Assembly: GCA_016191285.1 (NCBI GenBank)
Contig: JACPPA010000002.1
Span: 1-64,000, forward strand
Reading direction: 5' to 3'
Source of the DNA: Gammaproteobacteria bacterium
Lineage (GTDB): Bacteria > Pseudomonadota > Gammaproteobacteria > Ga0077536
Length of the DNA stretch: 64,000 nt
Part shown: in pieces, positions 4,775 to 59,314 of the stretch
Layout of the letters: each line of letters begins with the position of its first letter
Position numbering within the stretch: position 1 is the first letter of the stretch
Program-made: the position numbers and the translations under genes
Notes under the pieces: generated by a model
Database searches by the model: none
What the model was told of the DNA's origin: nothing
The model's input: only the letters and a program-made list of their open reading frames with translations

Positions 4775-5343
4775 ATATCGATTATCTGATGCAGCGGTTA
4801 ACGGGGCGCGCGACATGTAGGCTCGAAACTCATGCTCGCCTTGGGCCGAGTGCGCGCATTCGGAATGTCTTTGGTGCTTCAGAACGCATTCTCGTCGGCG
4901 CCAATTCGTATGTTGCAGGGGAACTGCTCGTGTTCCGTCACGGCGGCACAATCGCTATCGGTGAATGGTGCTACGTCGGTGAAGACACAAGGATATGGTC
5001 GGCCGAGAGAATTTCTATAGGCTCACGCGTGTTGATATCGCACAACGTAAACATATTCGACAGCCTCACGCATCCGATCAACCCATCCGAACGCCATGCG
5101 CAGACGCGAGGGATTTTGACGACCGGACATCCGCGTGCGGTGGAGCTCGAAGCGCGGCCGGTCGTGCTTGAGGACGATTGTTGGATTGGCGCGGGGGCGA
5201 TTGTCTTGCGCGGGGTGCGGATTGGTCACGGTGCGATCATTGGCGCGGGCTCGGTCGTTACGCGGGACGTGCCTGCATACGCGATCGTTGGCGGTAACCC
5301 GGCCGAGATCATTAGAGAACTCGCCCCGCATGAGCGAATCTAA
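4771..5343 (+). CDS. Hexapeptide-repeat acyltransferase (LbH family)
   Basis: 190 aa from a GTG at 4771 that overlaps the upstream TGA; the open frame runs further upstream but only as a shadow of the methyltransferase. Imperfect hexapeptide repeats (for example [30 protein letters not shown], and [29 protein letters not shown]) form a left-handed beta helix. The [13 protein letters not shown] segment supplies the active-site His region seen in maltose/galactoside O-acetyltransferase relatives. The likely role is O- or N-acetylation of a sugar in the glycan. It overlaps the next gene by 14 bp. Confidence 0.8.
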
Positions 5344-9137: not shown

Positions 9138-10094
9138 ATGGCGAATTCGCATGCGGGTGAAGAAGCGATTGCAGAATCTACCGAATCTCGAGCTAACGTC
9201 AACGTAAAAATCGCCACCCTATTAGGTGGCTCGTTGTTAATCGTGTGCTTACTGATAATTGGGTTAATGTTTCTACGCAAGCATTTTATAACACTCGCAA
9301 ACCAGATTTCTGCGGTTAGGACCGAGGTCACGGCAGTTAGGACCGAGGTCACGGCAGTTAGGACCGAGGTCACGGCAGTTAGGACCGAGGTCGCGGCGGT
9401 TAGGACCGAGGTCGCGGCGGTTGGAGCAGAGATTGTTGGGGTTAGAGCAGAGGTCGCTGCAGTTAAGACAGCGATCCCCCCCCCGCTTTACGAAGCACGT
9501 CACCTACAGGTTCGAAAATCTTTTATCTACTGGCAGGCGGCACAAATGGAAGAAGCGTACTCGCTTGTTGTTGGCGACAGCATTACTGAGGGGTTGTACC
9601 TGCCCAAGCTTGACGGCGCGCTCGTAGTGAATGGGGGGATGGGAGGTGCCGGAGTCAGCTCAGTCGAGGAATTACTTAACGAGTATCCAGCACAGCCTAA
9701 ACTCAAAGTAATTGTGATTGCGATTGGTGTAAACGACGCCACCAGGCGTGAATTGCCCATAACTTATTTTACTGATTGGGAGAAGAGTTATGGGACGGTA
9801 TTGACTCGTGCAAAGATGCTTGCTACTCGCGTTGCGATCAGCACCATAATTCCAGTTGAGACAGGGAAATCTTTGGGTGATCGCTATTTTGATCCAAGCG
9901 CGATAGCGCATATGAATTCCGTCATTCGTCAACAGGCTATGAAGTCGGGCGCCACCTTAATAGATAACGATAAATCGTTTGAGGCACTCACGGAACAGGG
10001 TCATTCATACACACTGGATGGTGTGCATTTGAATGCGAAGGGCTATCGAGTTTGGAAGAGCAATATACAGTCTGCTTTTAGTGCGTCGCAGTGA
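9138..10094 (+). CDS. Membrane-anchored SGNH hydrolase with heptad-repeat stalk
   Basis: 318 aa from the ATG at 9138, which has a GGAG seven bases upstream; a GTG at 9099 is possible but less likely. Layout: short cytoplasmic tail, one membrane span (about 24-46), a stalk of tandem heptads with consensus AVRTEVT (59-113), then an SGNH/GDSL domain. The nucleophile is Ser148 in GDSIT, the oxyanion residues lie in GGMGGAG and GVND (Asn199), and the Asp/His pair is Asp294 and His297 in DGVHLN. It is probably an O-acetyl esterase or transferase acting on glycan in the periplasm. The stalk should form a coiled coil and is encoded by a 21-bp minisatellite. Confidence 0.8.
   Translation: MANSHAGEEAIAESTESRANVNVKIATLLGGSLLIVCLLIIGLMFLRKHFITLANQISAVRTEVTAVRTEVTAVRTEVTAVRTEVAAVRTEVAAVGAEIVGVRAEVAAVKTAIPPPLYEARHLQVRKSFIYWQAAQMEEAYSLVVGDSITEGLYLPKLDGALVVNGGMGGAGVSSVEELLNEYPAQPKLKVIVIAIGVNDATRRELPITYFTDWEKSYGTVLTRAKMLATRVAISTIIPVETGKSLGDRYFDPSAIAHMNSVIRQQAMKSGATLIDNDKSFEALTEQGHSYTLDGVHLNAKGYRVWKSNIQSAFSASQ
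9312..9476 (+). repeat. 21-bp in-frame tandem repeat (minisatellite)
   Basis: Seven full 21-bp units and one partial unit. Units 1-5 are nearly identical, differing only at two A/G positions, and units 6-8 are degenerate. Each unit encodes one heptad of the stalk of the SGNH hydrolase, so unit gain or loss keeps the frame and only changes stalk length. Confidence 0.95.
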
Positions 10095-11158: not shown

Positions 11159-11220
11159 GTGGGAGCCGCTTTAGCGGCGAATCTTGTTCGAACCCCATTC
11201 GCCGCTAAAGCGGCTCCCAC
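11159..11220. repeat. REP-like palindrome, copy A
   Basis: A perfect 24-nt inverted repeat (arms 11159-11182 and 11197-11220, 14-nt loop) with core GAGCCGCTTTAGCGGC. Each arm is itself palindromic, the structure of REP/BIME elements. It lies between two + strand genes. Related copies are at 17045-17132 and 28098-28162. Confidence 0.9.
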
Positions 11221-45568: not shown

Positions 45569-45645
45569 CGGGGCGTAGCGCAGCCTGGTAGCGCACCGCA
45601 ATGGGGTTGCGGGGGTCGCGAGTTCGAATCTCGCCGCCCCGACCA
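45569..45645 (+). tRNA. tRNA-Pro (GGG), element attachment site
   Basis: 77 nt with encoded CCA. Acceptor CGGGGCG pairs with CGCCCCG, discriminator A. Anticodon stem CCGCA/TGCGG with loop ATGGGGT gives anticodon GGG. A TACAAT -10-like box lies at 45541-45546. Its last 20 nt plus two following A are repeated at 56763-56784. Confidence 0.95.
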
Positions 45646-45647
45646 AA
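45626..45647 (+). repeat. attL: left direct repeat of the integrated element
   Basis: The 22-nt 3' end of tRNA-Pro (T-arm half, acceptor, CCA and AA), from GAATCTCG to CGACCAAA, identical to 56763-56784. It is next to the integrase, as usual for tRNA-targeting tyrosine recombinases. Confidence 0.9.
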
Positions 45648-45819
45648 ATTAAGTCCAGTAGCATTCAGAATATTTCTAAAAACCCCTTTGGGATCCGTGA
45701 TGTATGGAGATATCAGTCGGCCGGATAGTCTGAAGTAGCGTGGTAGCATTCTAGGGTATCCGTGCGCCAACCCTGGTAAAAATCGTGATAACTAATTCCG
45801 CTCGACAAGAGTTACCACG

Positions 45820-47094
45820 ATGGCCAAAAATCTGTTGTCCGCCGCCGTGTGTAAGAAAGCTAAGAGCAATGGTGCAGCAATCCGCAAGCTCCACGATGGC
45901 GATGGACTTTATTTGTGGATGTACCACGACGGCCGGAAGTATTGGCGCATGCGGTACTGGCGAGCAGGTAAAGAAAAATCCCGCTCGGTTGGGGTCTACC
46001 CCAGAGTCACGCTGAGCGAAGCGCGCATCAAGCGCGACGAGCTATGCAATCAACTAGACGCGGGTCTCGATCCCTCCGCCGAGCGCAGGGCCATCAGCCT
46101 GCGTAAAAAGCTCTCCGCCGAAAACTCCTTCGAGGCGGTGGCACGAGAGTGGTACAACAAACAGCTTCATATCTGGGTGCAGCACCATGCGCAAGACATA
46201 AAGCATCGCCTTGAGTCCAATATTCCCCCCTCCTGGGCAAACGCCAGATCGATCAAATTGAAGCGCCAGAGTTGTTGCGCGCGATACGCAAGATAGAGGC
46301 GCGCGGCGCATTCGACCTTGCCCACCGGGTATTACAAGTATGCGGGCAAGTATTTCGCTATGGCATCGCGATTGGGGGTTGTGCGCGCAACCTGTCTGCT
46401 GAGCTGTGCGGTGCGCTGACGCCGCACGTGAAGAAACATCAAGCCGCCGTGCGCGCTGCGGAACTACCCGAGCTGCTGCGAGCGATTGCCAAATACAACG
46501 AAGTGGGGGACAAGCAAACTCGTCTGGCCCTGCAACTGCTGGCGCAAACTTTTATTCGTACCAATGAACTGATTGGCGCGAAGTGGGTGGAATTCGACTC
46601 GGATAAAGCCCTTTGGATTATTCCGGCGGAGCGCAGCGCATGAAGAGGCGAACCGATCCCGTAGTTAAGCTCAGCCGGCAAGCGCTTGCCATGTTGGCTG
46701 ATCTGAAAGAGATATCTTGCGGCAGTCGATACGTATTCCCCGGTAGAGATCGAGACAAACCGCTCAGCAACAACACAATGTTATTTGCGTTGTACCGATT
46801 GGGTTATAAGGGCCGGATGACTGGCCGCGGCTTGCGCGCGGTGGCGTCCACGATACTCAATGAAACCGGTTTTGACCCTGATGTCATCGAGCGCCAGCTT
46901 GCGCACTGTGAACGAGATGAAGTAAGGGTGCGTACAACCGGGCGGAATACCTCTCAGAGCGCAAGCGCATGATGCAACACTGCGCAGATTATCTCGATTC
47001 GATCGAAGCAGGAGCGAAAGTCATACTGCTTGTTTATGGCGATAATGTCGGTGGCGATAAGCCGCTTCTTCCGTGCGGGCTTCGGCAGCTCTAG
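45820..47094 (+). pseudogene. P4-type tyrosine integrase, three frameshifts
   Basis: An otherwise complete integrase of about 420 residues split over frames. Part 1 (from 45820): MAKNLLSAAVCKKAKSNGAAIRKL, then DGLYLWMYHDGRKYWRMRYW, the Arm-binding DUF4102 domain, and the start of the core-binding domain. Frameshift 1 falls in a C-run near 46229. Part 2 continues QIDQIEAPELLRAIRKIEARGAFDLAHRVLQ to WIIPAER. Frameshift 2 is a small duplication (AGCGC) near 46636. Part 3 has MKRRTDPVVKLSRQALAML and the catalytic GLRAVASTILNE and IERQLAHCERDEVR. Frameshift 3 (lost G near 46928) precedes the tyrosine part AYNRAEYLSERKRMMQHCADYLD. Confidence 0.9.
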
Positions 47095-47581
47095 CGAATT
47101 GCTGCTCGCGGCGATGGCGAAATCCTGCATGATTATCTGAAACAGTAACGCTCGTTTCACGCCACCATGAGCATAGTCCGTTTCATGCGCTGCTTGGATC
47201 ATTGATGCAGATCAAATCGTCGCGCGACGAGTTCCTTAGGCTCCATCCTGACGACGCTTGGTGAATGCCACGCGCGGTCATTTTTCTACTCGGGTTCGAC
47301 CCCTCATGACGCTGCCCGAAGGACGGGCGTGGCGCAATCGAGAATGGCTGCGTATTCCGGCGAAGCCGGCTACGATTCGTTGAAAAAGTGCTCGAATAGG
47401 GGCCGCTCGACGCTGAATTGCGTACTAGAATGACGGGCATATTCACCAGTGAGTATGCCGCCCATGATGAGTCGTATCCGCGCTGATGATCCGAAATCCA
47501 AAAACGAAGATCCCTGCACGAATCCCGTCGTAGCTCGCTTCACCAGCCTGTCCATCAACCGAAGTTCATTTAGGAGTAGAT
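47095..47581. other. Non-coding gap inside the island
   Basis: About 490 bp between the integrase remnant and the HiPIP gene. No recognisable gene. A TTCCGGCGAAGCCGG hairpin-like motif lies near 47355. The last part should contain the HiPIP promoter; AGGAG precedes its ATG. Confidence 0.4.
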
Positions 47582-47920
47582 ATGGAAAAGCCCACTAATC
47601 GCCGCGCCTTTTTCAAGGATTGTCTCGTCACCGTCGCGGCGGTGTCTGTCGGACAACTTGCGCTCAACCGCGTTGCGTATGCGGTGGAGCTGCCACATGT
47701 TGACGAAAGCAGTCCGCAGGCTGTCGGTCTCGGTTACAAGCATGATGCGGCGCTCGTCGACAAGACCAAATTCGCCCGGTTTCAGGAGGGCCAGACTTGC
47801 CGGAACTGTCAATTATATTCGGGTGCTGCAGATACAGAATGGGGGCCTTGTGCGCTCTTCCCAGGTCAGTCCGTGAACGCCAAGGGTTGGTGCAGCGCCT
47901 ATGTGAAGAAGGCGGGCTAG
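47582..47920 (+). CDS. High-potential iron-sulfur protein (HiPIP)
   Basis: 112 aa with AGGAG upstream. N-terminal Tat-like signal (NRRAFFKD, then a hydrophobic stretch to about residue 34), as HiPIPs are exported folded. The [4Fe-4S] ligands are Cys73, Cys76, Cys90 and Cys104 in the spacing C-x2-C-x13-C-x13-C that defines the family. It carries single electrons in the periplasm, for example to a terminal oxidase, a reaction centre, or from iron oxidation (Iro in Acidithiobacillus). No partner is adjacent, but the island also encodes a cytochrome-porin. Confidence 0.93.
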   Translation: MEKPTNRRAFFKDCLVTVAAVSVGQLALNRVAYAVELPHVDESSPQAVGLGYKHDAALVDKTKFARFQEGQTCRNCQLYSGAADTEWGPCALFPGQSVNAKGWCSAYVKKAG

Positions 47921-48701
47921 TTCGCCCCATCGCGCGCGCACCGGACAGTTCCGGTGCTGCGCCGGCTGCCATTGCGACGGGTGACCGTGGTGCGGATGCC
48001 TGTCAGTTTTGAATAGATCCATGTTCGCGACCAGCACGTGGTGAAGATGGCCTTGGAGTCCGCGCAGATGCCGTGTACCGCACTCGACAAGAAAAGCTTC
48101 AGCACCGAATGGCACTTGTTTAAGTGCGGTTTACGCCGGCACCCCGTGCGCCGAGCACTAGGTCCAGTGAAAAATGAATCCGTTATTTGACTGGATTCCT
48201 CCCGGCGAAAGCCGGGAACTCGCCGGCATGACGAAGGGCCAAGATTGCGCATCTTTCCCGGCATTTCAGCTTTTGTAAGCGCCATTCGCTTCAGCACCCT
48301 TTATCGATCCACGCATACCAGTCATCCTTGCGTGTATCGCCTTCGACATGAACGCGACCACCGCTCGTTGAGAGCGTTGGAAACGATCGAGGGATGCCGT
48401 TACGAGCAGTCACCTGATGTGTTTTTAAGAGGCCAGCGCGCTGAGCTTGGTTGCGCCCGAGCTGGTAACGCTGATCGATGATCCCGCTAGACTATCGGAT
48501 AACGTATCGCAAGGACGCGAGGCATGACGCCGTTAGTGGCCGGCAAGGACGCGGACTGTGCGTGTGGGCGAGTATGCCCGTCACCGGCCCGCGCAGACGC
48601 CCCTATATCAACTGGTTGAAACCCACTACCCGGCATTCGTGGCGGAGTTGGCGGCGCACGCAGGCCACGACCGCAGAGCTTCCGCGCACATGCCGCGGCT
48701 C
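47921..48701. other. Gap with repeat and transposase debris
   Basis: About 780 bp. It contains a CCCGGCGAAAGCCGGGAA hairpin with flanking GGATTCC and ATGACG (48192-48231), a short dispersed-repeat type, and an IS91-like transposase fragment at 48558-48690. No intact gene; the long open frames here are antisense to cusA or read through debris. Confidence 0.5.
48558..48690 (+). pseudogene. IS91-family transposase N-terminal fragment
   Basis: The reading EYARHRPAQTPLYQLVETHYPAFVAELAAH matches the zinc-binding N-terminus of IS91-type transposases (RPxxTxLYQLVExHYPAF). The usual zinc cysteines and everything after are missing; the frame then runs into the cusA 3' end. The fragment is only about 40 residues long. 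Confidence 0.7.
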
Positions 48702-51700
48702 CTAGCGCTCGATACTCCGGCTCAATTGCCACTGCTTGACCAGCGCATAAATAGCCGGAATCACGACGAGCGTGAGCACGGTCGAAGAAATCATTCCGCC
48801 GACCAAGGGCGCGGCAATGCGGCTCATGACTTCGGAGCCGGTGCCGGTACCCCACATGATCGGCAAGAGGCCGGCCATGATGGCGACAACGGTCATCATC
48901 TTCGGCCGCACCCGCTCCACCGCACCTTCCATTACGGCATCGTAGAGGTCGGCAACGTTGGTGGCGCGCCCCTCGATCCGCGCTTTCGCCTTCACGCCCT
49001 CCCAGGCATGATCGAGGTAAATCAGCATCACCACACCGGTTTCGGCGGCCACACCGGCGAGAGCGATGAAGCCCACCGCCACCGCCACCGAGAGGTTGTA
49101 GCCGAGCAACCACATCAACCAGACTCCGCCGACCAGCGCGAAGGGCACCGAGAGCATGACGATCAGGGTTTCGGTCAGGCGCATGAAGTTGAGGTAAAGC
49201 AGCAGGAAGATGGCTAGCAGGGTCACCGGAATGACGATTTTCATCTTCTTGACGGCCCGCTCCATGTATTCGAACTGGCCGCTCCAGGTGATGTAGTAGC
49301 CCGCCGGGAATTTCACCTGATCGGCCACCGCCTGGCGCGCATCCGCGACGTAGGAGCCGATGTCCCGGTCGCGAATGTCGACGAAGACGTAGGCGGAGAG
49401 GAGCGCGTTCTCGGTGCGGATGCCCGGAGTGCCTTTGGCGAGGTCCACCGTGGCGATCTGGCCGAGCGGAATCATGCTGCCATCCATGGTCGACACCAGC
49501 ACCTCACGGGCGATTTGCTGCGGGTTGGCGCGCAATTCCCGCGGGTAACGGACCTGTACGCCGAATCGCTCGCGTCCTTCGACCGTAGTAGTCACCCGCT
49601 CACCCCCCAGGGCGGTGCCAATCACCTCCTGTAGATCACCGACTGCCAGACCATAGCGGGCCAGTTGCTCGCGATCCGGTTCGATATTGAGATAAAAACC
49701 GCCGGTGATACGTTCGGCGAAGACCGAAGTCGTCCCCGGCACGGTTTTGACCACGGTTTCGATTTCCTTGGCCAGCTTTTCCATCTCGCCCAGATCCTTA
49801 CCGAACACCTTGATCCCGATCGGCGTGCGGATGCCGGTCGACAGCATGTCGATGCGCGCCTTGATGGGCATGGTCCAGGCATTCGATACGCCGGGGATTT
49901 GCAGCGCCTTGTCCAGTTCGCCAATCAATTTGTCGATGGTCATGCCGGCCGGCCATTCCGATTCCGGCTTGAGGTTGATCACGGTCTCGAACATCTCGAT
50001 CGGTGCGGGGTCGGTGGCGGTGTTCGCGCGACCGGCCTTGCCATAGACCGAAGTGACCTCGGGGAAGCGCTTGATGATCTTGTTCTGCGTCTGCAGTAAC
50101 TCTGCCGCCTTGGTGATCGACATGCCCGGGAGTGAGGCCGGCATGTACAACAGCGTGCCCTCGTTGAGCGTCGGCATGAATTCGCTGCCGAGCTTGGATG
50201 CTGGGTAGACCGAAACGCCCAGCGCCAACAAGGCCACCAGGAGAGTCAGCTTCTTCCAGCGCATCACCCCGGTAATGATCGGACGATAAAGCCAGATCAG
50301 GAAGCGATTCACCGGGTTCTTCGCCTCGGGCATGATCTTGCCGCGAATGAACAGCATCATCAGTACCGGCACTAGCGTGAGGGACAACAAGGCCGCACCG
50401 GCCATGGAGAAGGTCTTGGTGTAGGCCAGGGGGGCGAACAGCCGCCCTTCTTGCGCCTCCAGCGTGAAGACCGGCAGGAACGACACCGTAATGATGAGCA
50501 GCGAAAAGAACAGCGCCGGCCCCACTTCTTTGCACGCCGCGATCATCGCCTCGGCGCGATCGTGGACGGAGTGACCCTCCGGCAGCCGCTCCAGATGCTT
50601 ATGGGCGTTCTCGATCATGACGATGGCCGCATCGATCATGGCGCCGATGGCGATGGCGATGCCGCCCAGACTCATGAGGTTGGAGTTCATGCCCAGCGCG
50701 CGCATGGCGATGAAGGCAATCAGCACGCCGACCGGCAGCATCAGGATGGCAACCAGCGCCGAGCGCACATGCAGCAGAAAGATGATGCACACTGCCGCGA
50801 CGATCGCGCTCTCCTCGATCAGCGTTCGCTTGAGCGTTGCGATGGCGCGGTAAATCAGCTCGGAACGGTCATAGACGACCTCGATGGTTACCCCCTCTGG
50901 CAGGCCGGCGGCAACCTCGCCGATCTTGGCTTTGAGGTTGTGGATCACTTCCAGGGCGTTCACGCCGTAGCGGGCCATGGCAATACCGGAGACCACCTCA
51001 CCTTCGCCATTGAGCTCGGTGAGGCCGCGCCGCTCATCCGGCCCGAGTTCGACGCGGGCGATGTCGCGAATCAGCACGGGGGTACCCTTGTCGCTCTTCA
51101 CCACCAGCATTTCCAGATCGCGCGTGCCGCGCAGATAACCCTTGCCCCTTACCATGTACTCGGTTTCGGCCATTTCCACCACCCGTCCGCCGACGTCGCG
51201 GTTGGAGTCGCGAATGACCTGCGAGACCTTGGACAGCGCAATCCCGTAGGCGCGAAGCTTCACCGGGTCTACCGTGACCTGGTAGATCTGGACGAAACCA
51301 CCGATGGAAGCCACCTCGGCGACCCCTTGGGCCTTGGTCAGCTGGTAGCGCAAATACCAGTCCTGGATCGTACGCAGCTCTGCCAGCGTCCTGTTTTTGG
51401 CCAGTACGACGTATTGAAAGACCCAGCCCACGCCAGTGGCATCCGGTCCGAGCGACGGCGTCACGCCCTTGGGCATGCGCCCCGAAACGACATTCAGGTA
51501 TTCGAGAACCCGCGAGCGGGCCCAGTAGATATCGGTGCCGTCTTCGAAAATGAGGTAGACGAACGAGGCGCCAAAGAAGGAGAAGCCTCGCACCACCTTT
51601 GACTTGGGTACGGCGAGCATGGCCGTGGTGAGTGGGTAGGTCACCTGGTCCTCTACCACCTGCGGCGCTTGGCCGGGATACTCGGTGTAGACGATGACCT

Positions 51701-51836
51701 GCACATCCGAGAGATCGGGCAGGGCATCGATCGGGGTGTTAACGACGGCATAGATACCGCCGATGATGACGAACAGCGTGGCGAGCAGAACCAGAAACGG
51801 ATTTCTGCCCGACCATTCGATGATTTTGGCCAGCAT
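48702..51836 (-). CDS. cusA: Cu(I)/Ag(I) efflux RND permease CusA
   Basis: 1044 aa, full-length HME-RND pump. N-terminal MLAKIIEWSGRNPFLVLLATLFVIIGG and NTPIDALPDLSDVQVIVYTEYPGQAPQVVEDQVTYPLTTAML. TM4 reads AIAIGAMIDAAIVMIENAHKHLE, the CusA/SilA form rather than CzcA (which has DFG-type residues). The periplasmic cleft has the methionine-rich LLYMPASLPGMSITKAAELLQTQ region and GRANTATDPAPIEMFETVINLKPESEWP typical of CusA. It exports Cu(I)/Ag(I) with CusB and the outer-membrane channel. Last gene of the minus-strand operon, 12 bp after cusB. Confidence 0.93.
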   Translation of the reverse strand: MLAKIIEWSGRNPFLVLLATLFVIIGGIYAVVNTPIDALPDLSDVQVIVYTEYPGQAPQVVEDQVTYPLTTAMLAVPKSKVVRGFSFFGASFVYLIFEDGTDIYWARSRVLEYLNVVSGRMPKGVTPSLGPDATGVGWVFQYVVLAKNRTLAELRTIQDWYLRYQLTKAQGVAEVASIGGFVQIYQVTVDPVKLRAYGIALSKVSQVIRDSNRDVGGRVVEMAETEYMVRGKGYLRGTRDLEMLVVKSDKGTPVLIRDIARVELGPDERRGLTELNGEGEVVSGIAMARYGVNALEVIHNLKAKIGEVAAGLPEGVTIEVVYDRSELIYRAIATLKRTLIEESAIVAAVCIIFLLHVRSALVAILMLPVGVLIAFIAMRALGMNSNLMSLGGIAIAIGAMIDAAIVMIENAHKHLERLPEGHSVHDRAEAMIAACKEVGPALFFSLLIITVSFLPVFTLEAQEGRLFAPLAYTKTFSMAGAALLSLTLVPVLMMLFIRGKIMPEAKNPVNRFLIWLYRPIITGVMRWKKLTLLVALLALGVSVYPASKLGSEFMPTLNEGTLLYMPASLPGMSITKAAELLQTQNKIIKRFPEVTSVYGKAGRANTATDPAPIEMFETVINLKPESEWPAGMTIDKLIGELDKALQIPGVSNAWTMPIKARIDMLSTGIRTPIGIKVFGKDLGEMEKLAKEIETVVKTVPGTTSVFAERITGGFYLNIEPDREQLARYGLAVGDLQEVIGTALGGERVTTTVEGRERFGVQVRYPRELRANPQQIAREVLVSTMDGSMIPLGQIATVDLAKGTPGIRTENALLSAYVFVDIRDRDIGSYVADARQAVADQVKFPAGYYITWSGQFEYMERAVKKMKIVIPVTLLAIFLLLYLNFMRLTETLIVMLSVPFALVGGVWLMWLLGYNLSVAVAVGFIALAGVAAETGVVMLIYLDHAWEGVKAKARIEGRATNVADLYDAVMEGAVERVRPKMMTVVAIMAGLLPIMWGTGTGSEVMSRIAAPLVGGMISSTVLTLVVIPAIYALVKQWQLSRSIER

Positions 51837-51848
51837 GGTGTTTAGCCG

Positions 51849-53213
51849 TCAGTGAGCGGCGGCAGCCGGTTTGGCGGCCGGGGCAGCGGCGTCCGTTTTC
51901 GCCGGGCTGCCGTGCCCGGTATGACCGCCCATGCCACTCACGGCGGCCTCGAGATTACTCTCGGCGTCGATCAGGAAATTGGCCGCGACTACGACCTGTT
52001 CGCCTTCCTTAACCCCCTCCAGCACTTGCACATAGGGGTCGCTGCGGGGACCGAGCTTGACCTCGCGTGGCTCGAAGCGTCCTGCTTGCACTTGCACGAT
52101 GACGATACGACGCGTACCGCTGTCGATCACAGCCGAATCGGGCACGGCCAGCACCTGCCCGGGGTGACCGACCGACAGTTCCACTTGGGCGAACATCGCC
52201 GGCTTGAGCAACTGCCCCGGATTGGCGAATTCGACGCGGACGGGGACCGTACGGGTCTCTGCCTTCAGCGTCGGATAGACGTAGGTGATCCTGCCTTCGT
52301 AAACCTTGCCTGGATAGGCATTGATTTTGATCTTGGCCTTGGCGCCGGCCTGCACCAGACCGATGTCCTGCTCGAAGACATCAGCGATTACCCACACGGA
52401 TGAGAGATCGGCCACCTGATAGAGGGCTTCGCCGGGCATGAAGCGCATGCCCTGTAGCGCTTTCTTTTCGGTCACGATGCCGGCGACCGGGGAGCGGAAG
52501 GTAAGCGTGCGACGGGCCTCGCCGGAGTTGGCGAGCGCCTTGACCTGCTCCGCGGAAATATCCCAGTTCTCGAGCCGCATCAGGCTCGACTCGGCGAGCT
52601 GCTTCATGCCGCTCAGGGCCTCGCCGCCGGCGTCCTTCATGGCTTGCACACCCTGGGCGGCAATGGCGTATTCGTGTTGGGCGGAAACCAGTTCCGGACT
52701 GTAGACCTCAAACAGCGGCTGTCCCTTGCTGACCGGTTGGCCGGTCACATTGACGTGCAGGCGCTCGACATAACCTTCGAACTTGGGCGAGATGGTGAAG
52801 ATGCGGCGCTCGTCCGGCTCGATGCGGCCCTCCGCCCGGACGATCCTGCCCAAGGCCCGCAGGCTGGCCGCCTCTGTCCTGACGCCCAGCTTCTGGACTT
52901 TCTCGGTGCTGATACTGATCTGGTTGGCGGCCGGCTCGCCGGCCCTATTCCCCTCCGCGTCCGCAAACACCGGGGCGTAGTCCATACCCATCGCATCCTT
53001 CTTCGGCGTCGGCGAAGTGCCGGGCAGGCCCATCGCGTTGCGGTAGTAGAGGATCTTGCGCTCGGTACCTTCGATCGGGGTGGAAGACGCGATGGGTGTA
53101 GCCGTAGCGCCGTGGCTGTCAGCGGTATTCCGGTGGCCGAACCAGTAGCCGCCCGCAGCGGCCACCAGGGCCACCGCGATCACGCCGAGGGCGATGTTCG
53201 CTCCCTGTTTCAT
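51849..53213 (-). CDS. cusB: Cu(I)/Ag(I) efflux periplasmic adaptor CusB
   Basis: 454 aa. N-terminal anchor (IALGVIAVALVAAAGGYWF), then the heavy-metal-binding segment ILYYRNAMGLPGTSPTPKKDAMGMDYAPVFAD, which is diagnostic of CusB. Barrel-sandwich and helical hairpin follow (VYSPELVSAQHEYAIAAQGVQAM), and a Gly/His/Met-rich tail near MGGHTGHGSP that may bind metal. It links CusA to the outer-membrane channel. ATGA overlap with the upstream gene. Confidence 0.93.
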   Translation of the reverse strand: MKQGANIALGVIAVALVAAAGGYWFGHRNTADSHGATATPIASSTPIEGTERKILYYRNAMGLPGTSPTPKKDAMGMDYAPVFADAEGNRAGEPAANQISISTEKVQKLGVRTEAASLRALGRIVRAEGRIEPDERRIFTISPKFEGYVERLHVNVTGQPVSKGQPLFEVYSPELVSAQHEYAIAAQGVQAMKDAGGEALSGMKQLAESSLMRLENWDISAEQVKALANSGEARRTLTFRSPVAGIVTEKKALQGMRFMPGEALYQVADLSSVWVIADVFEQDIGLVQAGAKAKIKINAYPGKVYEGRITYVYPTLKAETRTVPVRVEFANPGQLLKPAMFAQVELSVGHPGQVLAVPDSAVIDSGTRRIVIVQVQAGRFEPREVKLGPRSDPYVQVLEGVKEGEQVVVAANFLIDAESNLEAAVSGMGGHTGHGSPAKTDAAAPAAKPAAAAH

Positions 53214-54484
53214 AGATCCTCTCCCAAGAGTCGTTCGATTTCTGCGAGGCGTATTTGGGCTTCGGCCTTCGCCTTGATCTGGCTCTGCCTGGCCTGACGG
53301 ATCTGTCGCTGGGCATCCAGCATCGTGGCGAAATCCACCTGGCCGGTTTCATAACCGGCAAGCGCCGCCTGAAAGGTTAGTTCGGCCTGCGGCAGCAGGC
53401 TGGTGGTGGTTAGTGCCTCGGTACGGCGGGCAGCGTCGAGGCCCGACAGGTGCTCCGCGAGATCGGCGAACACCTGATTAGCGGCCGCCTCCTTACGCGC
53501 TTGGGCGGCGGCGAGCATGGTCTCTGATTCCTGCTCCTGCGAGCGCCGCGAGGATTGCTGCAAGGGGAGGTTGAGTTCGACCATCAACTCCCATTCCTTG
53601 ACGGAATTCCCATATTGGATGGGTGAGACCCCGACGGTGAAATCGGGGAAACGATTCTTGTAGGCAAGATCGCGGCTCTTTTCGGCGGCCTTGATGCGCG
53701 CTTCTTCCGCAAAAAGCTGTGGATTGCGGGCACGCACGCGATCCTCCAGCGCCGCAAAATCGAGTTTCCCCGGCGCGGGAAGAGCGCGCAGGCGAGCAGA
53801 CTCGGCGAGCGGTGACCCGGCGGGACGGGCGAGCAGCGCATTCATTCGCGCCTGAAGCTGGTGGCGTTCGTTCTCCAGGGCGACCAGTTCGTTTTTCAGG
53901 TTGGTCTGCTCGACCTGCGCCCGAATCACGTCTTGCTGTGCCGCGAGGCCGCCGGCGTAGCGAACCTGGGCAACTTGCTCCAAACGGGCCATGAGATCGA
54001 GAATTTCACGGGTGAGCCGTTCGTTGCGATGTACGTAATAAAGCTGGGCAAAGGTCGACTTGATGCGCGCCGATAGCTCTGCCCACGTTCCCATGGTGCG
54101 GCCCTTGGCACCTTCGGCCTCCAGTGTGGCAATCTCACGCTTGAGGTCACGCTTGCCGAACCAGGGCACGTCCTGCATCAGCAGATAGCGGGTGCTGCCG
54201 ACCCGGCTTGGGGACAGCGTCGGATTCTGTTCCCCGGACTTGGTGATGTCCCGCAGTTCCGCGCGGAATTTCGGATCGGGCAGCGCACCGGCGGGAGTGA
54301 CCCGCTGTCCGGCAGCGTCCGCTTCGAGGCGCATCGCCGCATACTCCGGATTGTGCGCCTTCGCGTATTCCAGAAGGCTGTCTACACTCGCGCCCGGGGT
54401 CATTTCTTGCCCGGGAGCACTGGCGGAGGAGGCCATCAGCATGGCGATCAGGACGACGCCCAGCGAGGTTGTTTTTCGGCTCAT
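53210..54484 (-). CDS. Outer-membrane efflux channel (TolC/CusC family)
   Basis: 424 aa from the ATG at 54484, which gives a normal signal peptide (MSRKTTSLGVVLIAMLMASSASA); the open frame extends to 54556 but that leader looks non-natural. Two OEP repeats: VDSLLEYAKAHNPEYAAMRLEADAAGQRVTPAGALPDPKF, and a second half with LQQSSRRSQEQESETMLAAAQARKEAAANQVFADLAEHLSGLDAARRTEALTTTSLLPQAELTFQAALAGYETGQVDFATMLDAQRQI. No lipobox. It forms the exit duct of the CusABC pump. Confidence 0.9.
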   Translation of the reverse strand: MSRKTTSLGVVLIAMLMASSASAPGQEMTPGASVDSLLEYAKAHNPEYAAMRLEADAAGQRVTPAGALPDPKFRAELRDITKSGEQNPTLSPSRVGSTRYLLMQDVPWFGKRDLKREIATLEAEGAKGRTMGTWAELSARIKSTFAQLYYVHRNERLTREILDLMARLEQVAQVRYAGGLAAQQDVIRAQVEQTNLKNELVALENERHQLQARMNALLARPAGSPLAESARLRALPAPGKLDFAALEDRVRARNPQLFAEEARIKAAEKSRDLAYKNRFPDFTVGVSPIQYGNSVKEWELMVELNLPLQQSSRRSQEQESETMLAAAQARKEAAANQVFADLAEHLSGLDAARRTEALTTTSLLPQAELTFQAALAGYETGQVDFATMLDAQRQIRQARQSQIKAKAEAQIRLAEIERLLGEDL

Positions 54485-54875
54485 CCTGCACCCTGATGTT
54501 TCAAGCGCCGTTTCCGCTAGGCGCATTCGTCTGACGTTGTAGCGCAAATTGGACATTGCGCTCGCATGGGCATTGCGATCTGATCGGGCTTGGCATGCGC
54601 GCCATCAGCCGCATCGGCAACTGTTACGCCCAGAATGCCCGCACGCTGAACTTCCGCCTTGACCCGAGTCAAGCACAGCACCGCCAGGCGTGCCGTTTCG
54701 CAACCCTCGGTGCGGGCGCAGCGCGAACGATTGATCCAAATCAGAGGCACGGCACCGGGCATCGCGGATGATACCGGCGTATTCAGGGCGGGGTGTTAAG
54801 GCGGTATCGAGTCGAATTAACACTGCTTCGCGCGCCGCAATCTATCGTTGTCTTCCATGATGAGAAGGAGCAACC
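54485..54875. promoter_or_regulatory. Divergent regulatory region between cusC and the cytochrome-porin gene
   Basis: 390 bp separating the minus-strand cus operon from the + strand cytochrome-porin. It contains a perfect dyad CTTGAC-CCGA-GTCAAG at 54658-54673 that could be an operator. A cysteine-rich reading frame lies on the minus strand (54517-54762, listed separately). A shared divergent promoter would co-regulate efflux and cytochrome. Confidence 0.5.
54517..54762 (-). CDS. Possible small cysteine-rich protein at the head of the cus operon
   Basis: 81 aa, six cysteines, including a final QCPICATTSDECA and SRCARTEGCETARLAVLCLTRVK. It ends 33 bp before the cusC start. No clear Shine-Dalgarno and no family recognised; codon third positions look only moderately coding-like. 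It may be a metal-binding small protein or a decayed fragment. Confidence 0.3.
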   Translation of the reverse strand: MPGAVPLIWINRSRCARTEGCETARLAVLCLTRVKAEVQRAGILGVTVADAADGAHAKPDQIAMPMRAQCPICATTSDECA

Positions 54876-56273
54876 ATGGCCAATTCCAATCGTTCGCGCA
54901 GTGATTGCCGGCGCGTGCTGACGGCGCTCTTCGCCATGCTTGGCGCGATGATCGCCCTCATGTTCGCCCTACCCAGGACAGTCCAAGCCGTGCCGGCGTT
55001 CGCGCGCCAGACCGGCGCCTCATGCAATCTCTGTCATACCCAGGCGTTCGGTCCTTCACTGACGCCGTACGGGCGCACCTTCAAGCTCCATGGCTACGTC
55101 GACGGCGCTGCACCGAATCCAGTACCGCTCGTGAGTGGTACGATCATGGGCTCCCTCACCCACACGGATCGGGGCATTCCCAACGGTCCAGCCCCGGGCT
55201 ACGGCGACAACGATAATTTCACGATGGACCAAGCGTCGATCTTTATTGCCGGCCGCGTCCTGCCCCACCTCGGGGTGTACAGTCAGATCACCTACGATGG
55301 GGTCGCCGCGAAGGTCGCGCTCGACATGACGGAATTGCGCAGTAACTTCGAAACCACGCTGGGCGGTCACGGACTCGACTACGGTGTCATGTTCAATAAT
55401 TCGCCGACCGTACAGGATCTCTGGAATACGACGCCGGTCTGGGGCTTTCCTGTGAATACCTCACCACTCGCACCGACACCCGCCGCGGCGGCACTGGTTG
55501 ACGGGCGCCTCTCCGGACAAGTCGGCGGCGCGACCGCCTACGCCATGTACGCGGACAAGCTCTATGTGGAGGCTGGCGCCTATGCGACCTTCTCCAAGGG
55601 TGTGCAACGGACGTTCGGGACTTTCGCCCCCGACGAGGCTAAGCTCGCGGGCGCGGCCCCGTACTGGCGGGTCACGCTGCAGAACGATCCCGGCGCGTGG
55701 GGCGGCCATTACTTTGCAGTGGGGCATTACGGCCTGTACGCCGATGTCTATCCGGGGCGCATCACCGGTAGCGGCACCGATAGCATCACGGATCTAGGCT
55801 TCGACGCGACGTATCAATATCTGGGGACGATGCTGCATATCTTCGAAGTGCGCTCGACCTATCTCTGGGAGGAACAGCACAATCGCGCGAGCCAGGCCCT
55901 TGGCAACAGCACCAATCTGACGGACTACCTCAATACCTTCCGTCTCAATGGCACCTACACGTTTCGTCAGACTTATAGTGTCGTCATCGCCTATCAGAAC
56001 ACGTGGGGAACACGCGACAACGGACTCTACGCCGCGGGTCCAATCGGGGGCAGCCGCACGGGTCGGCCCGACAGCGATGCCTTCATCGCCGAACTGGATT
56101 ACGTTCCGTTCGGTAAAGTGCAGTCTTACCTCCAGCCGTGGCTTAATCTCAAGCTGACCCTGCAATACATCAACTATCTGAGCTTCAACGGCGCTGATCT
56201 CAACTACGATGGATTCGGGCGGAACGCCGGGGACAACAATACATTGCTTGTGAACGCCTGGTTTCTATTTTGA
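54876..56273 (+). CDS. One-heme cytochrome fused to an outer-membrane beta-barrel (Cyc2-like)
   Basis: 465 aa with AAGGAG upstream. Signal peptide to about residue 38 (QA-VP), then PAFARQTGASCNLCHTQAFGPSLTPYGRTFKLHGY: one c-type heme motif at Cys50-x2-Cys53-His54, in the exact setting (FARQTG..C..CH...L.P.GR.FK..GY) seen in Cyc2-type iron oxidases and relatives. The remaining 400 residues alternate in beta-strand style with many Tyr/aromatic girdle residues and end in an aromatic Phe (NAWFLF), as outer-membrane barrels do. It could pass electrons across the outer membrane. Whether it oxidises iron is not proven; related proteins occur in non-iron-oxidisers. Confidence 0.8.
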   Translation: MANSNRSRSDCRRVLTALFAMLGAMIALMFALPRTVQAVPAFARQTGASCNLCHTQAFGPSLTPYGRTFKLHGYVDGAAPNPVPLVSGTIMGSLTHTDRGIPNGPAPGYGDNDNFTMDQASIFIAGRVLPHLGVYSQITYDGVAAKVALDMTELRSNFETTLGGHGLDYGVMFNNSPTVQDLWNTTPVWGFPVNTSPLAPTPAAAALVDGRLSGQVGGATAYAMYADKLYVEAGAYATFSKGVQRTFGTFAPDEAKLAGAAPYWRVTLQNDPGAWGGHYFAVGHYGLYADVYPGRITGSGTDSITDLGFDATYQYLGTMLHIFEVRSTYLWEEQHNRASQALGNSTNLTDYLNTFRLNGTYTFRQTYSVVIAYQNTWGTRDNGLYAAGPIGGSRTGRPDSDAFIAELDYVPFGKVQSYLQPWLNLKLTLQYINYLSFNGADLNYDGFGRNAGDNNTLLVNAWFLF

Positions 56274-56762
56274 CGCAGCGCGGCGGCGCGTGCTGTGGAC
56301 GTCGTCGCGCTATTCTGGACCATGAGTTGGCAATCCTACGTCGCCGGCAAGTTGAGCACCGTACCGGCCTATCGCGTAGCACGCTGTATCAGTACATCAA
56401 AGATGGTTGCTTCCGGAAACCCGTACCGCCGCGCTTGCGGCTGGCTGCGCTGAGATCGACTGGAAAGTAATCAGTACGAACGAACGGTAAGGTTGGTTAA
56501 CGGAGGAAGTCCCTGACCGTCCGTAGCCGACCCTTACAGGCCCGCCGCCTAGGAAGCTCAGTAAAGTCGAAAAGTGCCTCTTGTTTCATCCGGAGCAGTT
56601 CAGTGCCGCGTATACTGCTCAGAAATTAGGCGTCGAGTCGATTACAGCGTATCCCCAAATATTGCAGGCAATCGCAAAGAGGTATTGAAGCCATAATCGT
56701 GGTAACTATGAAATTCTACAAAGGAAAGATCTAGTATTAACAATAATTTATGATTCTGTTGT
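56274..56762. other. Right end of the island: alpA debris and non-coding sequence
   Basis: The first 230 bp hold the alpA remnant. The rest (56510-56762) is AT-richer, with no recognisable gene, and runs up to the right attachment repeat. Confidence 0.5.
56318..56505 (+). pseudogene. AlpA-family regulator remnant
   Basis: Reads [35 protein letters not shown], the helix-turn-helix of AlpA/excisionase-like regulators of P4-type islands. After a frameshift near 56435 the expected end resumes weakly as AAGCAEIDWKVI (normally VGWxxSEIDxW). No good start codon; nearest is TTG 56327. Confidence 0.7.
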
Positions 56763-56784
56763 GAATCTCGCCGCCCCGACCAAA
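56763..56784 (+). repeat. attR: right direct repeat of the integrated element
   Basis: A 22-nt exact copy of the tRNA-Pro 3' end (GAATCTCG to CGACCAAA), with no tRNA body upstream of it. It marks the right border of the island. Confidence 0.9.
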
Positions 56785-56846
56785 TTACCTCCTGAACTTC
56801 GATGAGCGGGTCTTCGACCGAAGATCGGCACCGAGGGTCGATCAGC

Positions 56847-57392
56847 ATGGTTCCGAACAAATTGCTTCTGAGTGTGTCGCCGAAATTGATCAGCAGCAAT
56901 TTTGGTTATCGCGAGCGGTGCCCCTACGTCTGGATTTCCGCGCTCGCAATTTTGGGTGTGGGCCTGATCGCCTGCGATTCCCACCGCGACGGCTTGACCC
57001 TGTTCCAGGCCGGTGAATTTGCGGCTGCACATCGGCCGCTTGAACTCGCTGCCATGGCCGGTGATCTCAACGCACAAAATCTCCTTGGAATTCAGTACTA
57101 CTTGGGTTTGGGTGTGCCGCGCAATCTGCAAGTCGCACGTGAGTGGTTCCAAAAAGCCGCACGACGCCAACATCCGAGCGCCCAGAAAAATCTCGGGCTG
57201 CTGTACTTACGCGGGTTCGGCGTCACGCAAGACTATCATCAAGCCTACGGCTGGCTGCACGCCGCCTTCGCGCAGGGCGAGACTAGTGCCGCCGACTATT
57301 TGAATTTGATGACGGATAATCTAACGCCCAGCCAAATGCACCAAGCGCAGCTCCGCATAAATGCGGAGATTGCTCGAGAATCTAGCCATTAA
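56847..57392 (+). CDS. Sel1-repeat lipoprotein
   Basis: 181 aa from ATG 56847 (MVPNKLLLS); an ATG at 56802 adds 15 residues. Hydrophobic leader ending in the lipobox LIAC-DS, so probably lipid-anchored. Tandem Sel1/TPR-like repeats: AQNLLGIQYYLGLGVPRNLQVAREWFQKAAR, then AQKNLGLLYLRGFGVTQDYHQAYGWLHAAFAQG. A protein-interaction scaffold of unknown partner. First chromosomal gene right of the island. Confidence 0.85.
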   Translation: MVPNKLLLSVSPKLISSNFGYRERCPYVWISALAILGVGLIACDSHRDGLTLFQAGEFAAAHRPLELAAMAGDLNAQNLLGIQYYLGLGVPRNLQVAREWFQKAARRQHPSAQKNLGLLYLRGFGVTQDYHQAYGWLHAAFAQGETSAADYLNLMTDNLTPSQMHQAQLRINAEIARESSH

Positions 57393-57481: not shown

Positions 57482-59314
57482 ATGTGTGGAATTGTCGGCG
57501 CCGTAGCGCAACGTTTTGTCGCTCCGATCCTGTTGGAAGGCCTCAAACGGCTTGAATACCGTGGCTACGATTCGGCCGGCATGGCGGTCATTTCGCTCAG
57601 CCAAAACATCGAACGGCGGCGCGTGCTCGGCAAGGTCGTCGGCCTGGAGCAGGAATTGATTACCTCACCCTTGGAAGGCGCTATCGGTATCGCCCATACC
57701 CGGTGGGCAACGCATGGGGAGCCGAGTAAGCGTAACGCGCATCCGCACGTGGCTGGTGATTTAGTGGCGTTGGTGCATAACGGCATCATTGAGAATCATG
57801 CAGAACTACGCCGTCGACAAACCGCGGATGGCTACGACTTCACGTCGGAAACCGACACTGAAGTCGCGGTTAACCAAATTCATGGTTTTCTACGAGGCGG
57901 TGATGACCTGTTAGCTGCAGTCCAAAAGACCGCGCTGGTGCTCGACGGTGCGTTCGCCTTGGGTGTGATAGCGAAGAGCGAGCCGAATCGATTAATTGCC
58001 GCGCGGCGCGGGAGTCCCTTGGTGATAGGCCTTGGCATCGGCGAGAACTTTATCGCGTCCGATGTGTTTGCGCTGTTGCCGGTGACGCAGCGCTTTATCT
58101 TCCTGGAAGACGGCGATATCGCGGACGTTCGACGCAACGAAGTACTCATTTACGACGCTAGCGGTCAACGGGTCGAACGCGCGCAATCGATTTCGAACCT
58201 CGCGGCGGATGCGGCGGAGAAATCGGGTTACCGCCACTTCATGCTGAAGGAAATCTACACCCAGCCGCGGGCGCTGGCGGAAACCCTCGAAGGCCGCATC
58301 GTCGGCGGCAAAGTCACCGACGAATGTTTTGGACGCGATGCGGACAAGCTGTTTGATCGCGTTAAATCGATCACGATCGTGGCCTGCGGCACTAGTTATC
58401 ACGCGGGAATGGTCGCCCGCTATTGGTTTGAAGCCCTCGCCGGAATTCCCTGTACGGTCGAAGTCGCCAGCGAATTTCGCTATCGCAAAACAGTCGTCAC
58501 CGAGGGCGCGATATTCGTGACGATTTCGCAATCCGGCGAAACCGCGGATACCTTGGCGGCGCTCCGCGAAGCCAAAAAATCGGGTTATGCGTCGACGCTT
58601 GCCATCTGTAATGTTCCCGAAAGTTCGTTAACGCGTGAATCGGAACTGGTATTGATGACGCGCGCGGGGCCTGAGATCGGCGTGGCGTCGACCAAGGCGT
58701 TCACTACTCAATTAGCGGCGCTGATGCTGCTGGTCGTTGCCTTGGGCCGTCGTCACGCGATGACACCCGAACAGGCAGCTCACCTCGTTAGCTGTCTAGA
58801 AAGTTTGCCCGGTAAAGCGAATGTCGTCCTCGAGCTCAATGCAGCGATCGAGACCTTGGCCGAGGACTTCGTCAACAAACATCACATGCTGTATCTGGGA
58901 CGTGGCTCGATGTATCCCATCGCCATGGAAGGCGCGTTAAAACTTAAGGAAATTTCGTATATCCACGCCGAAGCCTATCCCGCTGGTGAACTTAAGCACG
59001 GTCCCTTGGCGTTGGTCGATGACGAAATGCCCGTGATCGCGATTGCTCCCAATAATGACTTGCTTGAAAAGCTCAAATCCAATCTTGAAGAAGTGCGAGC
59101 GCGCGGCGGCGAACTCTATGTGTTCGCGGATTCACGCGTCGAAGTGCCAAACAAGCCGGGCTTCCATGTAATCCCGATCCCTAGCGTGGACGACGTTATT
59201 GCGCCGATTATCTACAGCATTCCGCTGCAACTGTTGGCCTACCATGTGGCCGTGCTCAAGGGCGCGGACGTCGACCAGCCGCGCAACCTCGCGAAATCCG
59301 TGACTGTGGAGTAA
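57482..59314 (+). CDS. glmS: Glutamine--fructose-6-phosphate aminotransferase
   Basis: 610 aa, full length. Cys2 (after Met) is the Ntn nucleophile in [12 protein letters not shown]; glutaminase domain with [11 protein letters not shown] and [11 protein letters not shown]; two SIS domains ([33 protein letters not shown]); C-terminal NLAKSVTVE. It makes glucosamine-6-P for UDP-GlcNAc, the precursor of peptidoglycan and of the HexNAc sugars in the polysaccharide cluster. Confidence 0.98.

Follow-up and report, generated by a model that had tools for sequence, protein, structure and literature searches.

P4-type satellite elements and CP4-57-like cryptic prophages offer a ready comparison for DNA inserted at tRNA genes: an Arm-DNA-bind_3 integrase lies at the tRNA end, and AlpA, the CP4-57 regulatory protein in the Pfam description, at the other. 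Here we describe an element with this layout in a 64,000-nucleotide stretch of DNA (the window) from a Gammaproteobacteria bacterium of the Ga0077536 lineage (GenBank assembly GCA_016191285.1, contig JACPPA010000002.1, positions 1 to 64,000). It is almost certainly a decayed tyrosine-recombinase island at the 3′ end of a tRNA-Pro(GGG) gene, with a broken integrase, a truncated AlpA and a cargo of metal and electron-transfer genes. It differs from P4-type satellites in this cargo and in having no identified satellite replication or capsid-size genes.

The second group of described relatives is the tRNA-associated genomic islands (GEIs) with tyrosine integrases. As far as the available part of PMC2704930 portrays them, our island is similar in size (about 11 kb), in its position at a tRNA 3′ end, in its direct repeats and tRNA-adjacent integrase, and in its absence from close relatives. 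It departs from them in its broken integrase and truncated AlpA, and no conjugation genes are among those identified in the 11 kb. A light search of the literature on Cyc2 cytochrome-porins, on tRNA-Pro and copper islands and on AlpA and arm-type sites turned up no description of this island among the papers listed.

A repeat of the tRNA-Pro 3′ end marks both borders

A preliminary description of the window had set the borders of an island at a 22-bp repeat of the tRNA-Pro(GGG) 3′ end, with an integrase remnant inside the left copy and an AlpA remnant inside the right one, where no tRNA body was seen. Exact repeat comparison bears out these borders. The tRNA-Pro(GGG) gene (45569-45645, + strand; ARAGORN, Rfam RF00005), the presumed attachment target, is whole, and its final 20 bases plus AA make up the left copy of GAATCTCGCCGCCCCGACCAAA (45626-45647, +), identical over 22 bp to the right copy at 56763-56784 (+). 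We take the two to be the attL and attR cores, respectively. Neither ARAGORN nor Rfam calls a tRNA at the right copy, ruling out that it is a piece of a second tRNA. When 45569-45700 was searched against the organism's own genome, it matched itself, a tRNA-Pro(TGG) at 81% identity and, over 22 bp, the right copy at 56763-56784, and nothing else. Exact direct repeats of at least 18 bp in the window amount to 39 repeated 18-mers from a few families, and the 22-bp repeat is the only one touching the island region. Since both searches confine the 22-mer to two places, a chance repeat is ruled out.

Both remnants are where they had been reported. The Pfam-matched pieces of the integrase start 172 bp inward of the left repeat, and an AlpA-like open reading frame (ORF; 56270-56470, Pfam) lies 292 bp inward of the right one. 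Borders at the tRNA-Pro repeats are thus supported, with the crossover placed to within 22 bp. Counting one repeat copy, the element is 11,137 bp long by arithmetic.

The insertion site is empty in relatives

The preliminary description also predicted that in relatives lacking the island the tRNA-Pro gene would be followed directly by the sequence found past 56784. The MerR-like protein encoded to the left of the tRNA was searched in 58 genomes (the organism's own and 57 others) and matched in 50; the best 30 loci were examined, one being that of the window and the other 29 coming from relatives. Flanking genes are called MerR, glmS and IHF here from a reading of their protein sequences. The tRNA-Pro(GGG) gene is present in 26 of the 29 relative loci, and in 24 of these glmS starts 97-699 bp downstream, as predicted. 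In the window, the corresponding glmS-type gene (57482-59314, +), 58-80% identical to those of the 24 loci, forms the conserved right flank. It is preceded by a Sel1-repeat gene (56802-57392, +; Pfam), the first resident gene to the right of the island; a Sel1 match also stands between tRNA-Pro and glmS in 10 of the 24. With the island subtracted, the distance from the tRNA end to glmS in the window would be 699 bp (arithmetic), at the top of the range in relatives. The remaining two of the 26 loci leave their contig after the tRNA, at 382 bp (L005, genome G005) and 327 bp (L024, genome G035). In the three loci where tRNA-Pro was uncalled, two contigs stop less than 90 bp past the MerR-like gene and the third is L033 (genome G023).

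The site is empty in four of five congeners (G001-G004). The integrase, the high-potential iron-sulfur protein (HiPIP) and the cytochrome-porin of the island have no match in the 29 relative loci; the Cus proteins were not queried, but the gap is too small for them. In the 1.25-1.37 kb downstream in the 24 loci, the final 22 bases of the tRNA do not recur over 12 bp or more. Two observations had been named beforehand as arguing against the proposed borders, namely cargo-free relatives with both repeats and cus genes among the same neighbours elsewhere without the repeats. The former are absent among the 24 loci with glmS after the tRNA, and the latter among the seven cus loci (L187, L188, L193, L194, L221, L224 and L225) searched with the full set of nine island proteins, which matched Cus proteins only; RND (resistance-nodulation-division) relatives were matched in 57 of the 58 genomes, the neighbours of most being left unexamined. 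Insertion of foreign DNA at a tRNA is an ordinary type of event, and here it is clear from near relatives without the block.

A broken integrase, its sister copy and a shared motif

The tyrosine integrase (45820-46972, +) sits beside the tRNA, as in tRNA-integrated islands, but is split over three overlapping ORFs (45820-46296, 46272-46643 and 46613-46972). These match Pfam Arm-DNA-bind_3, Phage_int_M and Phage_integrase, and this spreading of its domains indicates that the gene is broken. At the other end, the remnant of AlpA (excisionase/regulator; 56261-56467, +; PF05930, E 4.4e-9) matches profile positions 3-33, i.e. 31 of 51, and is truncated; an ORF in another frame (56380-56487) looks like its missing tail. 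Nine of 60 intergenic ORFs were run against Pfam and gave only the AlpA and weak helix-turn-helix matches, in the same ORF. An intact integrase and excisionase are expected of a self-excising island; here the one is split and the other incomplete.

The closest relative of the integrase among 190 genomes is found in the same genome, as a 408-aa ORF starting 173 bp past tRNA-Ser(GGA). The two are 79% identical in DNA over 1,304 bp, a region that includes the motif-bearing sequence upstream. The tRNA-Ser(GGA) locus (L091:7048-8537, contig C47) has three exact copies of the 12-mer ATCGTGGTAACT upstream of the integrase, and its contig stops about 1.2 kb past the gene, so that the far end of that element is unseen. 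Remnants of the same integrase subfamily also follow tRNA-Ser genes in congeners G005 and G003. The 3′ ends of tRNA-Pro and tRNA-Ser have the T-loop in common and differ on the acceptor side.

The window holds only two exact copies of ATCGTGGTAACT, at 45810-45821 (−) and 56696-56707 (+). Both sit just inside the island ends, where they make a second border mark. On the left, a motif search adds ATCGTGATAACT (45782-45793, +, one mismatch), giving candidate integrase arm sites over 45782-45821 that would be matched by a candidate right-hand site at 56696-56707. With up to two mismatches the 12-mer occurs seven times in the window (vs. 2.9 in shuffles), a number reached by 1 of 100 shuffles. The whole 5.1-Mb genome contains six exact copies, vs. 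about 0.6 expected by arithmetic and none in a reversed-sequence control: two at the island, three beside the full-length integrase of C47 and one at C14:5664. Its placement suggests that ATCGTGGTAACT is a putative arm-type site of the island integrase. The shared 12-mer and the different tRNA neighbours point to one integrase lineage that kept its flanking motif while at two tRNAs.

Cargo genes

The cargo includes a 465-aa Cyc2-like fused cytochrome-porin with one CXXCH (54876-56273, +), which has no Pfam match at E 0.1 and no NCBIfam match at E 0.001. The part of PMC8406198 available to us defines Cyc2 by AXPXFAR[Q/K][T/Y] upstream of CXXCH, PXL downstream and a length of at least 365 aa. 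The island protein has all of these features, reading AVPAFARQT-GAS-CNLCH-TQAFG-PSL. The motif and CXXCH are 3 residues apart and CXXCH and PXL 5, by our own count, vs. 5 and 4 in the same part of that source, whose way of counting may differ. An AlphaFold model built from 36 sequences (mean pLDDT 87, but below 50 next to the heme motif, over residues 32-39) has 16 strands, the number in the Cyc2 barrel. A structure search of the PDB returned porins (best E 4.6e-10; query TM 0.35-0.47 among the 50 matches listed); OprO and OprP, the comparison structures in the available part of PMC8406198, are absent from these 50. The island protein therefore resembles Cyc2, as far as portions of PMC8406198 and PMC10654088 describe it, in its AXPXFARQT residues, CXXCH, PXL, length (>365 aa) and 16-strand barrel. 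Unlike in Cyc2 systems, rus, cox and cyc1 are not among the identified genes of the island. Judging from its family, the protein very probably binds a single c-type heme at the outer membrane and may pass electrons across it. It should be noted that Cyc2 Cluster 3 is the most uncertain and that much of Clusters 2 and 3 needs testing, according to the same portion of PMC8406198. Matches were found in 23 of 190 genomes, the organism's own included, several of the weaker ones covering the N-terminus only, and in 9 records of a plasmid collection capped at 5000, at 32-41% identity.

A CusCBA-type operon on the − strand encodes a CusC/TolC-type outer-membrane factor (53210-54556; Pfam OEP), a CusB-type periplasmic adaptor (51849-53213; Pfam HlyD_D23, TIGR01730 above cut-off) and a CusA/CzcA-family RND permease (48702-51836). 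The permease scores 1235 bits against TIGR00914 (cut-off 701), which, together with the adaptor and outer-membrane factor of the same operon, identifies a CusA/CzcA pump. Models of metal specificity remain below their cut-offs (PRK09783 for CusB, 158.7 of 390 bits; TIGR00999 for CzcB/NccB, 156.6 of 319.3 bits). Export of toxic metal ions is the very probable role of the pump, and its family suggests ions of the Cu/Ag type. The closest of the plasmid matches listed is Acidovorax sp. T1 plasmid p1-T1 (CusA 86%, CusB 69%, CusC 64%). CusA matches next at 76%, among others on a plasmid of Methylobacter sp. YRD-M1, adjoining a Tn3 transposase; the best CusA match outside the organism's own genome in the 58 genomes, in G006 of the same family, is likewise at 76%. 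The p1-T1 CusCBA/CzcCBA genes have the same order and families as those of the island. However, the island operon is chromosomal with no mer genes among its identified neighbours, whereas mer genes lie upstream on p1-T1. In both p1-T1 (L187) and the Methylobacter plasmid (L188), merR-merT-merP-GDCCVxC precedes the TolC-adaptor-RND operon.

The HiPIP gene (47582-47920, +; 112 aa; PF01355, E 5.7e-28) encodes a protein that has a paralogue at 62% identity in the same genome and matches in 25 of the 58 genomes, including its own. We asked how often these genes stand together. In named genomes, at least 595 stretches matched the porin, of which 574 were confirmed and 80 kept; each came with at most 10 kb of flanking sequence, often cut short by a contig end. 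CusA was found near the porin at two of the 80 (L125, 55%; L141, 23%) and CusB at two (L125 and L152), and HiPIP, integrase and AlpA at none. Twelve further porin loci in relatives yielded CusA once (L095) and HiPIP never. At L095:1506-8722 (G056:C25), from another family of the class, cusC-cusB-cusA is followed on the same strand by a Cyc2-like cytochrome-porin; the 16 kb of L095 contain no match to the island integrase or to HiPIP, and gene order is unlike that of the window. The rarity of CusA (2/80 and 1/12) and the absence of HiPIP (0/80 and 0/12) near the porin leave a fixed functional unit unsupported. A conserved cus-cytochrome-porin cassette as a general rule was rejected on the same counts (CusA 2/80, HiPIP 0/80), and a joint function of the cargo genes is unproven.

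Composition and dispersed repeats

The cargo half of the island has a GC content of 0.618, vs. 0.546-0.588 in 7.5-kb windows to its left. Inside the island, 48106-48288 (no strand assigned) is a dispersed repeat some 180 bp long that holds a short G+C-rich inverted repeat. At least 43 further stretches of the same genome match it, some of them perhaps fragments of one copy. The island is probably old and immobile by itself. Outside the island, the window has a tandem repeat with a 21-bp unit at 9312-9422 (several exact 18-mers at 21-bp spacing) and an exact 19-bp repeat, ATTCGCCGCTAAAGCGGCT, at 11197 and 28138, which contains an inverted repeat.

Discussion

The account that best fits these data is as follows, its order of events being a reconstruction. 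An integrative element with a tyrosine recombinase almost certainly inserted itself into the chromosome at tRNA-Pro(GGG), at the 3′ end of the gene; its integrase would have bound ATCGTGGTAACT-type arm sites that flank the core on both sides. Recombination over the 20-22 bp common to attP and the tRNA would keep the tRNA intact and set a duplicate of its 3′ end at the opposite border. Both integrase and AlpA would later have decayed, and a dispersed genomic repeat would have come to lie inside. The lasting contribution of the element would be its cargo: the HiPIP, the CusCBA-type metal RND efflux pump and the Cyc2-like cytochrome-porin.

Several observations weigh against this account. The fifth congener, G005, gives no answer, its contig stopping 382 bp past the tRNA, and locus L033 of genome G023 shows no tRNA-Pro in the 787 bp after its merR-like gene, unlike 26 other loci. 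The nearest relatives of the integrase sit at tRNA-Ser rather than tRNA-Pro, and the integrase half of the island (GC 0.56) is like the rest (0.567) and not compositionally foreign. The proposed arm sites are asymmetric, at 55 bp from the core on the right and at 134 and 162 bp on the left. Matches to the 9-mer CGTGGTAAC with one mismatch allowed occur throughout the window (16 vs. 10.3 in shuffles, 4 of 100 shuffles reaching 16), so that only the full 12-mer marks the island ends. Finally, the 12-mer at C14:5664 has no att-like tRNA fragment alongside and is probably there by chance; for want of such a fragment, the idea that C14:5664 is the other end of the element at tRNA-Ser was also rejected. 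As a separate observation, the tRNA-Pro of G005 (L005/L105, G005:C49), the congener whose MerR match ranks highest (99%), shares its 5′ half with ours but has a different T-arm, possibly reflecting another insertion at the same tRNA.

The alternatives bear on different parts of the account. Short 3′ tRNA fragments can, as a matter of general knowledge, form without integration, and the right copy might be a stray duplication of tRNA-Pro rather than an attachment site; with integrase and AlpA remnants and ATCGTGGTAACT inside both ends, and with empty sites in 24 of the 26 relative loci to contradict it, this is scarcely credible. A composite origin is compatible with a tRNA-Pro island and deserves to be entertained, if tentatively: a small integrase/AlpA element would have come first and the metal cargo later, through a transposon or plasmid recombination, so that the borders would still be the element's but the cargo would not have travelled with it. 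The step in GC between the integrase half and the cargo (0.56 vs. 0.618) fits such a history, as do the nearest cus operons, found near plasmid mer genes and in one case adjoining a Tn3 transposase. So does the 62% identity of the HiPIP to its paralogue in the same genome, which makes a local source possible, and the fact that cytochrome-porin and cusA are seldom together. Yet no transposase family appeared in the nine of 60 intergenic ORFs run against Pfam, inverted or diverged internal repeats not having been searched, and the loci examined include no cargo-free element with the same ends.

Whichever way the cargo arrived, the decay of integrase and AlpA leaves the tRNA-Pro island fixed, barring the action of a related integrase in trans. 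The full-length tRNA-Ser integrase might act in this way and excise it, the 12-mer being identical at both systems and the integrases 79% identical in DNA; PMC2704930 reports that integrases of different islands can cross-talk. However, the tRNA-Pro and tRNA-Ser cores differ beyond the T-loop and AlpA is truncated, making continued mobility very unlikely.

As it stands, the tRNA-Pro island has clear-cut borders, marked by the two core repeats and by a second motif. Two of its parts deserve a second look. One is the integrase pair: with a sister full-length integrase at another tRNA and the same 12-mer in one genome, it becomes directly testable whether an integrase lineage has switched its tRNA target. 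The other is the Cyc2-like cargo, which places a cytochrome-porin of this type on a transferable kind of island. One could imagine a portable metal-redox unit in which the porin draws electrons from a reduced external metal and hands them to the HiPIP in the periplasm, with the Cus pump removing the accompanying toxic ions; we consider this very improbable because no HiPIP match occurs at the 80 or the 12 other porin loci. If it were true, the host would have gained a metal-oxidising trait in one step.

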